Assembly (NCBI RefSeq): GCF_016811235.1
Contig: NZ_JAFBID010000028.1
Coordinates: 1 to 64,000, forward strand
Length of the DNA stretch: 64,000 nt
From: Microvirga arabica
GTDB taxonomy: Bacteria; Pseudomonadota; Alphaproteobacteria; Rhizobiales; Beijerinckiaceae
Direction of reading: 5' to 3'
The position numbers and the translations under genes were made by a program. This document shows, piece by piece, positions 816-15,243 of the stretch. The notes beneath the pieces were generated by a model, which did not search any database, was not told the DNA's origin, and was given only the letters and a program-made list of their open reading frames with translations. Position 1 is the first letter of the stretch; each line of letters begins with the position of its first letter.

Positions 816-1649
816 ATGGATGCTTGTGTCTACGCCAGCGATCTCACTGATGCCGAATGGGCGCTGCTCGAGCCCCTCGTCCCCCGCAGCCATCCAGCAG
901 GACGGCGACAGACCTATCCGCTCCGGCGCATCGTCGATGCCATCTTCTATCTGCTGCGCACCGGCGCGCAGTGGCGGCTACTGCCGCACGAGTACCCGCC
1001 GCGTGGTGCCGTCTTTTACCACTATGCCCAGTGGCGCAAGGATAGCACCTGGGAGCACGTGACCCAGGTTCTGCGCGAGAGCTATCGCCGTGCGATCGGC
1101 CGGTCTCCTCAACCGAGTGCGGCGATCCTCGACAGCCAGTCGGTCAAGACCAGCGAGATGGGAGGGCCGCGCGGCTATGACGGCGGCAAGAAGGTGAAAG
1201 GCCGCAAGCGTCATCTGCTCGTCGACACGCAAGGCACGCTGCTGAAGAACAAGGTGCAGCCCGCCGACCTCCATGATCGCACCGGGGCCGAGCTCCTGTT
1301 GGAGGGTCTGCAGCATCTGTTTCCGGCCATTGAGCGAATGTGGGCCGACACTGCTTATCGCGGATTGAAGGATTGGCTGCGCCGAGCGCTGGGCTGGCAG
1401 CTGTCGATTCCGCAACACTGGTGGAGCGGCGGCGTCTGGATGCGGGCTGACGCAGAGCCGCCGACGCGCCCAAGCGGCTTTCAGGTGCTCGCGCGCAGGT
1501 GGGTTGTTGAACGAACCATCGCCTGGTTGACCACCAACCGGCGGCTGGCCAAGGACTACGAACGCCTGATCGAGACCGGCGAGATGCTGCTCTATCTCGC
1601 CATGAGCCGCATCCTGCTGCGCCGCCTCACCCGCAAGAACGAAAGATAA
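816..1649 (+). CDS. IS5-family transposase
   Basis: This 277-residue DDE transposase cuts and joins the ends of its own element. The N-terminal DUF4096-like region has LTDAEWALLEPL and GAQWRLLPHEYPP. The catalytic triad is visible as Asp106 (AAILDSQSVK), Asp178 (MWADTAYRG) and Glu232 (RRWVVERTIAWL), followed by the conserved NRRLAKDYE. Length and motifs are complete. The ATG at 816 follows GGAGGG at 806-811. It is the only gene of the element at 707-1665. The subgroup (IS427- or IS1031-like) is not settled by sight. Confidence 0.93.
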   Translation: MDACVYASDLTDAEWALLEPLVPRSHPAGRRQTYPLRRIVDAIFYLLRTGAQWRLLPHEYPPRGAVFYHYAQWRKDSTWEHVTQVLRESYRRAIGRSPQPSAAILDSQSVKTSEMGGPRGYDGGKKVKGRKRHLLVDTQGTLLKNKVQPADLHDRTGAELLLEGLQHLFPAIERMWADTAYRGLKDWLRRALGWQLSIPQHWWSGGVWMRADAEPPTRPSGFQVLARRWVVERTIAWLTTNRRLAKDYERLIETGEMLLYLAMSRILLRRLTRKNER

Positions 1650-3954: not shown

Positions 3955-4878
3955 TTGCGCAATCCACACCATGCCAGAGCCTGCCTCGTGTCCGGACTTC
4001 TGCTCCTCGCTCCTGCCGCGTTAGCACAAGCACCTTCCATCGACTTCCCAGACATCCCCCTGCCTCCCGTCATCGAGGGGCTGATTGGGTTGCCCCAAGC
4101 CTATACCTCAGGGCGTAAGGCTCATCTTGCGACAATCAGGCGTGAGGCCGAGCAGGTGGGGCTTCCTCCTGATGTTGCGGACGCGGTAGCGCAGGTCGAG
4201 AGTAGTTATAACCCTGGTTCAGTTGGAGGAGTTGGTGAGGTCGGCCTCATGCAAATCCGTCCTACAACCGCCGCCATGCTGGGCTACAGAGGCACGTTGG
4301 CTGGATTGTTTGAGCCCGAGACGAACATTCGTTATGGCGTCGCATATCTTGGTCGCGCGTGGCAGCTTGCTGACGGTAACCTGTGCCGTGCGCTCATGAA
4401 ATACAGGGCAGGACACGGTGAGGAGCGCATGACGCCGCTCTCGGTGGAGTATTGCCGACGGGTTCGGACCCACTTGGCAGCCGTTGGATCTTCCATTGGT
4501 GCAGGGGGCGATGCAGTGAGCGTTTCGCCCACGGCCTCTTCGACTTTCATCGCATCCAGCGCATCTAAAACCGCACCCAAGGCTGTTGCTGACAAGGAAG
4601 CCGAATCCGACACGGCCAGCGCGGTTCGCCAGGCAAAAAGCACTTCGGCGAAGACCATGCGGGTTCGTCCCCCACAGCGACCGATCACCGGATTCAGAAT
4701 CGCTGCCGTAAGGCGGATGAAGGTGGCTTCTGCCGAGACGCGCTCCCTCACCATCGTGCAGGCGAAGGCGAAGAGAAAGGCGAAGATTCAGCAGATGTGG
4801 GCTGCCCATGACGCACGCCTGCAGGCCATTTCCGCGAGGTTGAAGCCTGAGAGTCTTCGTATCTCTACCGGAATCTGA
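3955..4878 (+). CDS. Secreted lytic transglycosylase, SLT domain
   Basis: The 307-residue product cleaves peptidoglycan glycan strands in the periplasm. After a signal peptide (SGLLLLAPAALAQA) comes an SLT/goose-lysozyme-like domain at about residues 60-155, with catalytic Glu82 in AQVESSYNPGSVGGVGEVG, the LMQIRP motif and the NIRYGVAYL helix. The C-terminal 150 residues are Ala/Ser/Lys-rich, low in complexity and strongly basic (KAKRKAKIQQ), which may bind the wall or DNA. The start is a TTG at 3955 with AAGGGG seven bases upstream; the ATG nearby is out of frame. Such enzymes accompany type IV secretion or flagella, but no such genes are visible here. Confidence 0.8.
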   Translation: MRNPHHARACLVSGLLLLAPAALAQAPSIDFPDIPLPPVIEGLIGLPQAYTSGRKAHLATIRREAEQVGLPPDVADAVAQVESSYNPGSVGGVGEVGLMQIRPTTAAMLGYRGTLAGLFEPETNIRYGVAYLGRAWQLADGNLCRALMKYRAGHGEERMTPLSVEYCRRVRTHLAAVGSSIGAGGDAVSVSPTASSTFIASSASKTAPKAVADKEAESDTASAVRQAKSTSAKTMRVRPPQRPITGFRIAAVRRMKVASAETRSLTIVQAKAKRKAKIQQMWAAHDARLQAISARLKPESLRISTGI

Positions 4879-5217
4879 ACATTACTGGTGTCAGTAGGCG
4901 TGAGACAATTGAGGCTTGGGCGCAGCGGATGAGCAGTTCCAAGAGTCATAGACGACAAGCCAAGATACTCGCCTGCAGGATACCAAGGAGGCGCTCTAAG
5001 TTCTGGCCTCACCATCGGTTAGCCCTTGGAGCATCCGTGGAGCTTTTCCTGAGGGGACTGCGCTCAGCTGTCGCTTGCAAACGAAGCCCGGTCCTGTGCT
5101 CGTAGCTCCTCAACAGAGAGGTGGCAGGGCTGGCACGGATATGGTCTGCTTGGACCGACCGGCTTGAGAGACGAGGCGCTCGTTACATGCTCCCCGTCAG
5201 GGGAACAACCCCTCTGC
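4879..5217. other. Gap with no supported feature
   Basis: About 340 bases between the transglycosylase and the nepR pseudogene. I looked for an ecfG sigma gene downstream of nepR on the minus strand, its usual place, and found no sigma-factor motif here. Confidence 0.5.
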
Positions 5218-5460
5218 TCAGCGCGATTTATCTTCCCCGATGCTCCTGCTTGAAGTTGGCATTCGTTCCAGCAGCGCCAGCAAGCGTTCCGGGACGGGGC
5301 CTCCCATGCAGTCGTCGTACATTTTTCGCAGCCCATTGCCGAGATGTTACTGTATTAAACGGTCAAGCTTTGGGTCCTGGGGCGTCCTGCCTCCACCGCT
5401 CCCACCAGCAGCTGTCGCCAAAGCAAGGGTCCCTAGGGTGTCTGGGTTGTCCTCATGCAT
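5218..5460 (-). pseudogene. nepR: NepR-family anti-sigma factor with one nonsense codon
   Basis: NepR binds and inhibits the general-stress sigma factor EcfG until phosphorylated PhyR removes it. Reading the minus strand from an ATG at 5460 gives 80 sense-length codons in one frame. After a variable N-terminus comes DPKLDRLIQ, then a stop TAA (5347-5349), then HLGNGLRKMYDDCMGGPVPERLLALLERM, whose LR-x-MYDD and PVPERLLxLLE pattern is the NepR core. A single C-to-T change (CAA to TAA, Gln to stop) would explain it. No in-frame ATG with a ribosome-binding site rescues the core half. A partner ecfG or phyR is not visible nearby. Confidence 0.75.
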
Positions 5461-5587
5461 GACCTGGCCTCACGTCCAAATCTCGGACAGGTGAAACTAG
5501 GGGAAACCTTTGTAGATCGTCATGTACCAAAAGGGCTATTGCGCAGGAGCGTGTTCCGCATGGCGAGTGTGTAGGGGGACAATTTAT

Positions 5588-5979
5588 GTCACAACTAGGT
5601 CTGGATGCGAGACCTCCTTGGCGTGAGCGACGACCTGGAGGGCTTGGGACAAAGCGTCTGAATCGGGCCGCTTGGAGCGCCAGCTATTCTCGCCCGTCGG
5701 TTGGACATAAGCTCAATCGTCACCGATGTTGAAACCTCAGGAACAACTAATGGCTTCATGCTGGCTCGTCGCATGGCGAGGGAGCGACCGGAGGTTCGTC
5801 TGATCGTGGTGTCAGGTCGGGTGGCACCGAAGCCAAGTGATTTACCTGAGGGTGCCAGCTTCATCGCGAAACCCTTCTCTCCTCAGACGCTCCTCTTTGT
5901 CGCCAACAGGATGGTTCAGCGATTGAGCAGCCGCCTGGGTGGGGCATTTAGAACCTCAATAGATTTTTGGTCAAGGTAA
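5588..5979 (+). pseudogene. Decayed single-domain response regulator
   Basis: The clear part, from about 5660, reads PAILARRLDISSIVTDVE (phospho-acceptor Asp in IVTDV), then GFMLARRMARERPEVRLIVVSG and FIAKPF with the conserved Lys, the receiver fold of short response regulators common in Rhizobiales. Upstream in the same frame VSDDLEGLGQSV resembles receiver helix 1 but is followed by a TGA at 5659-5661, and the acidic N-terminal pocket (VEDD) is missing. The gene is therefore truncated and interrupted. It is divergent from the nepR pseudogene 128 bases away, so both may be relics of one stress-signalling locus. Confidence 0.65.
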
Positions 5980-6099
5980 TGGCCAAGCTAACGGGAATCG
6001 CGAAAATGATACTAATATGGAAGCGCACCTTGGGCCGTTACGGTAACGTTAAGCGCGTAAGTGTGCTATATGGCCTCTTTAGCGACGAGGAGATGACCC

Positions 6100-8541: not shown

Positions 8542-9825
8542 TCAGGCGGACACGGTCTGCAGGATTGTCTTGAACGCGTTGGTTCCCAGACCGAGACGAG
8601 CCGTGTCAACGACCGTTCGAATGTCCGCTTCGCCCTCGGCCGCCCACATGGCCCGGTAGCCGTTGGTCACCTTGCGCTGAATGACGGCGGGTCTGAGCGC
8701 GCGTTCGCAGGCATTGTTGGTCGCCTCCACCATGCCGGGCCAGTGGGCGAAGGTCAGAAGCTGATCACGGGCGCGCCGGACCTTGCTCTGAAGGTCGCGG
8801 GCGAGATCACAAGAGGTCGGCGCGGCCAGGATCGCGTCGAGACTGCGCTCCAGGGCTCGGCGCTTGCGGGCCAGGGTCGAGGCGGCCAGCGTTGCGACCT
8901 CCTCCGCCAGGGCAAAGGCCCGGTGCAGCCACAGCTTGAGGCGGGAGGGCAGGACATCCTCGCTCGCCTCATCGGCATAAGCAACGTCGCGGGCCAGATG
9001 GGCCAGGCAGGTCTGATGGGCATCGGCATGGCCCTGTTGGGCGCTGTAGCGGTCGGAGCACCAGACAGCAGGCCGGTGCCCGTCCATCATCGTCCGGACC
9101 ACGACGGCACCCCGGGGCACAGAGGCATGATGGACCACCGCCTCCGAGCAGCGAAACACCCAATGGTAGGCGTTGGAGCCTTCGATCCGGACGCCGGTCT
9201 CATCAGAAGCGATGGCCTTGGCTTGGCGCAACGCCGCGATGGCCCTGTCGCGCTCGGCCGCAAAGGCGCCCTGCGCCCGGCGCAGCAGGTTCATCAGGCC
9301 ACCCTGGCTGAGCGTCAGGCCGAACAGGTCGGCGAATGCGCTTTGCAACCGCTCGTACGACAGAGCCTGGAAGGTCTTGAGATAGGTCGCCACGGCATGG
9401 ATGCGCGGCCCGAACGGTGTCCCCTTGGCCGCCTCTGGCACGGGCGCAACGACCCGCATTCCACAGGTCGGACAGCGCACCGCCAGACGCCGATGGCGCT
9501 CGATCCACGGCTTGATCGCGGGCAGTTCGATCGTGTCGTGTTCGCTCACGGTCGCGGTCGGAAGATCGGTCGCCAGCCTGGTCCGGCAGCATGGGCAGTG
9601 GTCCGGCTGATGGTCGATGAGGCGATCCACATCTGGGCTCATGGCGCGGCTGTGCCCGTCATGGCCCGGCTTGGCGCCACCCGGCTTGGCCTGATCCCGA
9701 CGCTGCTTGCGATCGGTCGAGGGCGGCTTTGAGGATGTGCGCGAGGTCTTTTGCGGCCGCTGCAGCCGCAGCACCAGCTCAATCAGCTCTTCCTTGCTCA
9801 GACGCTCAAGATCGCTGCGGCCCAT
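8542..9825 (-). CDS. IS66-family transposase (TnpC type)
   Basis: This 427-residue transposase has an N-terminal coiled-coil and basic linker (TSRTSSKPPSTDRKQRRD), a zinc-finger pair (CPCC at 77-80 and CPTC at 118-121), and a DDE catalytic core with Asp208 (AIASDETGVRIEG), Asp258 (VWCSDRYSAQQ) and Glu374 (EATNNACERALRP). The C-terminal IRTVVDTARLG box of IS66 is also present. It appears intact. The ATG at 9825 lacks a strong ribosome-binding site. Confidence 0.93.
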   Translation of the reverse strand: MGRSDLERLSKEELIELVLRLQRPQKTSRTSSKPPSTDRKQRRDQAKPGGAKPGHDGHSRAMSPDVDRLIDHQPDHCPCCRTRLATDLPTATVSEHDTIELPAIKPWIERHRRLAVRCPTCGMRVVAPVPEAAKGTPFGPRIHAVATYLKTFQALSYERLQSAFADLFGLTLSQGGLMNLLRRAQGAFAAERDRAIAALRQAKAIASDETGVRIEGSNAYHWVFRCSEAVVHHASVPRGAVVVRTMMDGHRPAVWCSDRYSAQQGHADAHQTCLAHLARDVAYADEASEDVLPSRLKLWLHRAFALAEEVATLAASTLARKRRALERSLDAILAAPTSCDLARDLQSKVRRARDQLLTFAHWPGMVEATNNACERALRPAVIQRKVTNGYRAMWAAEGEADIRTVVDTARLGLGTNAFKTILQTVSA

Positions 9826-13842: not shown

Positions 13843-13867
13843 AACGTGAGGGCGGTGAGGGGGTTCC
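13843..13867 (-). promoter_or_regulatory. EcfG-type general-stress promoter of the SDR gene
   Basis: On the minus strand GGAACC (13862-13867) is followed, 15 bases later, by CGTT (13843-13846). Counted as GGAAC-N16-CGTT this equals the consensus of the alphaproteobacterial general-stress sigma factor EcfG. The SDR start codon is 44 bases downstream. Confidence 0.75.
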
Positions 13868-13923: not shown

Positions 13924-13949
13924 GGAACCGGGTTTTCAACCCGAGCGTT
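13924..13949 (+). promoter_or_regulatory. EcfG-type general-stress promoter of the PRC-barrel gene
   Basis: GGAACC (13924-13929), 16 bases, CGTT (13946-13949), i.e. GGAAC-N17-CGTT. The PRC-barrel start codon lies 31 bases further. Together with the minus-strand promoter at 13843-13867 it forms a divergent pair. Confidence 0.8.
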
Positions 13950-15218: not shown

Positions 15219-15243
15219 AACGTCGTTATACCAAGGCGGTTCC
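15219..15243 (-). promoter_or_regulatory. EcfG-type general-stress promoter of the H1-like gene
   Basis: On the minus strand GGAACC (15238-15243), 15 bases, CGTT (15219-15222): GGAAC-N16-CGTT. It lies 50 bases before the start codon at 15169. It is the third such promoter within 1.4 kb. Confidence 0.8.

Follow-up and report, generated by a model that had tools for sequence, protein, structure and literature searches.

A NepR-like gene interrupted by a single stop codon

The window analyzed here is a stretch of 64,000 nucleotides from Microvirga arabica (contig NZ_JAFBID010000028.1). Its minus strand carries a short NepR-like frame with the following features.

5218..5460, minus strand: probable nepR-like orphan pseudogene; its 80 codons form one frame, broken by an internal TAA and closed by a final stop, and the match to Pfam NepR (PF18557) runs across the internal stop
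5347..5349, minus strand: TAA in frame where the NepR core begins, 5' of the conserved LGNGLRKMY, placed by alignments with 3t0y_B and other NepR copies
5221..5346, minus strand: the 42 residues of NepR core 3' of the stop, matching PF18557 on their own
5320..5322, minus strand: first in-frame ATG 3' of the stop; starting again here, translation would yield 34 residues, without most of the first conserved segment

The translation reads as 37 sense codons, the TAA, 42 sense codons and the final stop, in agreement with the initial annotation, which had described one minus-strand frame of 80 codons with a single TAA at 5347-5349. When the genome was searched with PF18557 (curated cut-off of 25.7 bits), the region 5263-5352 on the minus strand scored 35.4 bits (E = 8.2e-8) with one TAA inside. 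The 42 residues after the stop, taken alone, scored 35.2 bits (E = 9.3e-9), so that the comparison with the NepR family proposed in the initial annotation gave a match over the cut-off both across the stop and after it. The 37 residues before the stop, taken alone, matched no Pfam family. A tblastn search with the housekeeping NepR as query gave an alignment over 5376-5236 that spans the stop, with 45% identity over 47 residues (E = 6e-8). Given these family scores and this alignment, the resemblance to NepR, seen both before and after the TAA, is far beyond chance; the idea of a chance frame at 5218-5460 was discarded on the strength of the family scores. The NCBIfam model NF051865 (anti-sigma T factor equivalog; cut-off of 100 bits) gave 20.6 bits for the window copy, and it does not discriminate here, since the housekeeping NepR of the same genome also scored only 30.2 bits.

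The frame over the NepR core is interrupted, the TAA falling by its coordinates at position 2 of the 35-position Pfam model, and the assembly sequence of a recognizable gene thus contains a disabling codon. This confirms that the feature, in the assembly, is a NepR-family gene cut by a single nonsense codon. Like other members of the family (PF18557; PDB 3t0y), it has the core LR..Y ... P.PERLL, with a score over the cut-off; unlike them, its core is broken at the start and it is unlinked to phyR and ecfG. The residue replaced by the stop had been proposed to be a glutamine (CAA). This residue was not confirmed. The Caulobacter NepR (3t0y) has Q in this column; in the best NepR copies of 16 genomes it was K in 14, G in 1 and S in 1, a tally restricted to rows reading as best-scoring NepR copies, with wrong-strand frames of minus-strand loci excluded. 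Further copies had one K and one N.

The NepR core forms a pair of helices and binds EcfG or PhyR through them. If translated, the interrupted gene would yield a peptide of 37 residues devoid of this core and hence inert. The conserved segment LGNGLRKMY...PVPERLL, which aligns with the NepR of PDB 3t0y (E = 0.0057), lies 3' of the stop, and the part of it that follows the in-frame ATG at 5322-5320 (PVPERLLALLERM) is well conserved. A shorter protein restarted at this ATG, with part of the NepR function kept, is nevertheless very unlikely: it would lack the conserved LGNGLRK of the first segment, and there is no ATG, GTG or TTG in frame between the stop and this codon. The interval 4850-5750 had no sigma-70-like promoter either, a weak argument given that the search used a consensus pattern only and that shuffled sequences had a mean of 0.4 matches.

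Decay of the immediate surroundings

Two further remnants lie upstream of the nepR-like gene.

5594..5681, minus strand: end of an IS481-family element, 88 bp, with the last 27 codons of the transposase; identified by matches in relatives, a repeat of ~1.1 kb and tblastn (5679-5599)
5686..5979, plus strand: partial receiver domain of a response regulator, with roughly its first 43 positions missing; it abuts the IS remnant

Between the start codon of the nepR-like gene and the outer edge of the IS481 remnant are ~133 bp. The 88-bp piece is the end of a repeat of ~1.1 kb that occurs in relatives, and the full-length transposase of this repeat (locus L018) belongs to the IS481 family (235.9 bits, cut-off of 224). 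The receiver fragment covers only positions 44-107 of the 111 of PF00072, with a score of 18.4 bits against a cut-off of 30.2. A homologous stretch elsewhere in the genome matches it at 5686-5895, from residue 43 of that stretch on (tblastn), and relatives give further evidence for the fragment. The DNA of 4900-6050 had matches in 24 of the 48 Microvirga genomes (this one included), to the IS end apart from two exceptions, which were weak matches to the response-regulator part (G028:C58 and contig C165 of the present genome); at most nine candidates were scored per genome in this search, which may miss weak matches. On a larger scale, the decayed patch is flanked by transposase genes of the IS4/5 and IS66 kinds, at 816-1649 (plus strand) and 8542-9825 (minus strand).

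NepR, PhyR and EcfG in the rest of the genome

The assembly (G000) is a draft of 6.67 Mb in 246 contigs, with a completeness of 100 and a contamination of 3.06. At E ≤ 1e-3 it has 11 matches to NepR, of which 10 exceed the Pfam cut-off. The window copy alone carries a stop; the nine others over the cut-off are all free of stops. On contig C22, phyR, nepR and ecfG are adjacent and intact. PhyR gave 27 matches, of which the one at C22 is full-length and the others cover the receiver part, while 6 of the 20 EcfG matches are long, free of stops and at least 58% identical. The search for intact nepR, phyR and ecfG elsewhere in the genome, called for in the initial annotation, was thus successful. 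Two other EcfG-like genes may be broken: one is split over two frames (G000:C99:69855-70381), and one is short and flagged with a TAA (G000:C203:3916-4104).

A twelfth, weaker NepR-like stretch (E = 0.05) is located on contig C47 (G000:C47:1113-1193, L103); it lies above the limit of E = 1e-3 and is thus not counted among the 11. It appears degraded, with no start ahead of the core and with divergence after it. Like the window copy, it has a GGSG-x-GR-xP-x-DPKL-x-R stretch and the core; it is, however, only 34% identical to the window copy (48% over 27 residues among the matches listed) and weakly similar in its DNA, and we rejected it as a second remnant of that gene.

The window copy does not have the housekeeping-type arrangement beside phyR and ecfG. 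With the housekeeping proteins as queries, tblastn (E = 0.05) found neither PhyR nor EcfG in the whole window, and the NepR query matched only this stretch; no EcfG match lay within 2 kb of the window copy at E = 1e-4. The gene is without a partner even though the contig runs on, whereas the contigs of the C196 and C234 copies end just 3' of the gene, where a partner would not be visible. An EcfG gene within 2 kb was present at 3 of the 12 NepR-like loci (C22, C3 and C165), and the same three alone had a match to the EcfG-type promoter GGAAC-N-CGTT within 500 bp 5' of the core. The window copy had none over this distance.

The initial annotation had pointed to three EcfG-type promoters 8-10 kb away. 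They are indeed found, at 13843-13867 (minus strand), 13924-13949 (plus strand) and 15219-15243 (minus strand), any link with the nepR-like gene being hypothetical. The whole window has four such matches, which is not unusual (mean of 1.6 in shuffled sequences, with 10 of 100 shuffles reaching four). The three lie within 1.4 kb of each other and near genes for a short-chain dehydrogenase, a PRC-barrel protein and a Lys/Ala-rich HC2-like protein, the latter assignment being under the Pfam cut-off.

We compared the G+C content at the three codon positions. It was 0.67, 0.51 and 0.60 in a 165-base segment of the window copy, and ranged from 0.36 to 0.46 (position 2) and from 0.63 to 0.80 (position 3) in the nine copies that pass the cut-off and have no stop. 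The window copy is therefore above the range at position 2 and just under it at position 3. The stop-free copy on C13, under the Pfam cut-off, had 0.41 and 0.53 at these positions, and the C47 remnant 0.60 and 0.63. The composition of the window copy would agree with relaxed constraint, a signal weakened by the small number of bases and by the still lower value of the C13 copy at position 3.

Expected effect of the loss

Methylobacterium belongs to the Methylobacteriaceae (NCBI family), as does Microvirga. A study of Methylobacterium extorquens AM1 (PMC4814048) describes three NepR homologs beside NepR, of which two bound PhyR and none bound EcfG in a two-hybrid assay, with the caution by the authors that interactions were possibly missed. 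In the same study, overexpression of nepR or of one of the three homologs made the cells more sensitive to methylglyoxal, and the authors suggested that a NepR homolog competes with NepR for PhyR (PMC4814048). The window copy resembles these homologs in being additional to a housekeeping NepR, and the two genera are related. It differs from them in being broken, whereas they were expressed and tested as genes, and in its upstream region, which had no EcfG-type promoter match in 500 bp, whereas putative promoters of this type are given for two of the three homologs (PMC4814048).

The initial annotation had suggested that the loss of a NepR copy could raise EcfG activity, unless other copies existed. 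The proviso applies, given the nine other stop-free matches over the cut-off, and the suggestion finds no support, since these copies and an intact phyR-nepR-ecfG locus remain. A measurable rise in EcfG activity following the loss of the window copy would agree with the overexpression phenotype of M. extorquens, in that some extra copies can dampen the response, and with Sinorhizobium meliloti, where both NepR proteins are reported to bind EcfG (PMC4814048). Yet it is extremely unlikely: the housekeeping copy is among those that remain, no ecfG was found in the window and the M. extorquens homologs bound no EcfG in the two-hybrid assay. Since the second NepR of S. meliloti is reported to bind EcfG (PMC4814048), an orphan copy need not be without influence on EcfG. 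Had the working gene behaved as the M. extorquens homologs do, its loss would relieve at most a small negative input. The loss is probably buffered by the other NepR copies and of little effect, since nine over the cut-off remain.

NepR copies in Microvirga and its family

Microvirga is a soil- and nodule-associated genus. NepR was found in each of the 48 Microvirga genomes covered by the genus search (this one included), with 2 to 17 matches each and a total of 323 (four lists of 11, from this genome, 95, 115 and 102). The number of copies rises with genome size in these 48 genomes (Spearman coefficient of 0.85, on rounded sizes). For a rough comparison we drew 159 genomes of the family by even sampling at a minimum completeness of 95, a draw with few large Microvirga genomes: the 149 genomes of other genera had 0 to 7 matches and the 10 Microvirga genomes 2 to 11, with NepR absent in 16 of the 159. 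One genome of the draw (G119) first looked like a relative whose sole NepR copy is broken, and was discarded because the flagged TAA is the natural end of the gene. In open-license PMC literature, no paper named both NepR and Microvirga; judged by titles and abstract openings among the matches listed, searches for the Microvirga general stress response and for nepR pseudogenes with the general stress response returned nothing on the present subject or on NepR decay, respectively.

A stop inside the matched core was present in 3 of the 323 Microvirga matches, a count that ignores frameshifted copies and copies too decayed to score. Such stops are thus uncommon among the NepR copies of the genus that are still recognizable. 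Besides the window copy, they concern two loci.

G014:C65:96522-96614 (L123): NepR copy with a TAG in the core
G047:C187:29214-29303 (L122): NepR copy with a TAA in the core

In both copies the stop is internal and, by eye, they resemble the C246 copy and the C196 and C234 copies of the present genome, respectively.

The scarcity of such stops bears on whether the TAA is an error of sequencing or consensus, the gene being an intact orphan NepR. This is unlikely but is the main doubt, and the draft state of the assembly, the otherwise open frame of 80 codons and a core over the Pfam cut-off speak for it along with the 3 in 323. Against it stand the visibly decayed surroundings, with the IS481 remnant and the truncated response regulator, the unusual G+C at codon positions, on 165 bases, and the lack of an EcfG-type promoter in 500 bp, which has to be read knowing that such a promoter occurs at only 3 of the 12 NepR-like loci.

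An intact allele in relatives, which the initial annotation proposed to look for, was not found, the closest sequence having at most 59% identity among the matches listed. The 42-residue piece had, besides itself, nothing above 56% identity among the matches listed in Microvirga genomes. Genome contigs scanned with the stop as X gave 590 pattern stretches, none of them a relative. A scan with a three-row alignment found eight loci, six of them in Microvirga; the best E-value was that of M. subterranea (44% identity), and the most identical was M. zambiensis (59% over 27 residues). A plasmid search returned three records, each with 51.6% identity over 31 residues. The scans with the X pattern, plasmids and three-row alignment may omit records of this or very near genomes. 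None of these searches turned up an ortholog near enough to allow a test of relaxed selection. There is also a NepR match on a plasmid record of Microvirga ossetica (NZ_CP016618.1, 376589-376681), which has a nodule source.

Origin and significance of the interrupted copy

We consider that the window gene is a decayed orphan paralog of NepR in a NepR-rich Microvirga genome, with a probability of roughly 0.83; most likely, it is an ordinary dead spare copy, the main regulator being intact. This reading is based on the NepR homology on both sides of a TAA placed at the start of the core, on the lack of ecfG and phyR in the window and of an EcfG-type promoter in the upstream 500 bp, and on the adjoining IS481 remnant and truncated response regulator, while the housekeeping phyR, nepR and ecfG are intact elsewhere. 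It is also favored by the confinement of EcfG gene and promoter to three of the 12 NepR-like loci (C22, C3 and C165), by the deviating G+C at codon positions and by the nonsense codons in the core of two further NepR genes in Microvirga. Several points count against it: a frame open save for one stop, with a well-kept core, means that the decay would have to be recent, and the rarity of core stops means that such a loss is not common among recognizable copies. The possible consensus error, the few bases behind the G+C signal, the lack of a close ortholog in the searches and the EcfG-binding second NepR of S. meliloti weigh on the same side.

The decayed orphan may have arisen in three steps. 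An IS481 element would first have inserted upstream of the nepR-like gene. A deletion that began in the element and reached into the gene for the response regulator would then have disturbed the upstream region, after which the nepR-like gene would have drifted and gained the TAA. Insertion followed by such a deletion would be the simplest history of the remnants.

As one probably dead gene among about ten NepR copies, the window copy alone matters little. Tentatively, and with the odds somewhat against it, it could be one dying member of a fast-turning pool of NepR copies in Microvirga, gained on mobile or accessory DNA, lost by nonsense and IS damage, and tuning the one PhyR of each cell by competition. 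With the large NepR sets of Microvirga, one could study across a genus how an anti-sigma factor is gained and lost and how its copy number varies, and their range of 2 to 17 matches per genome is a more interesting side observation than the broken copy.
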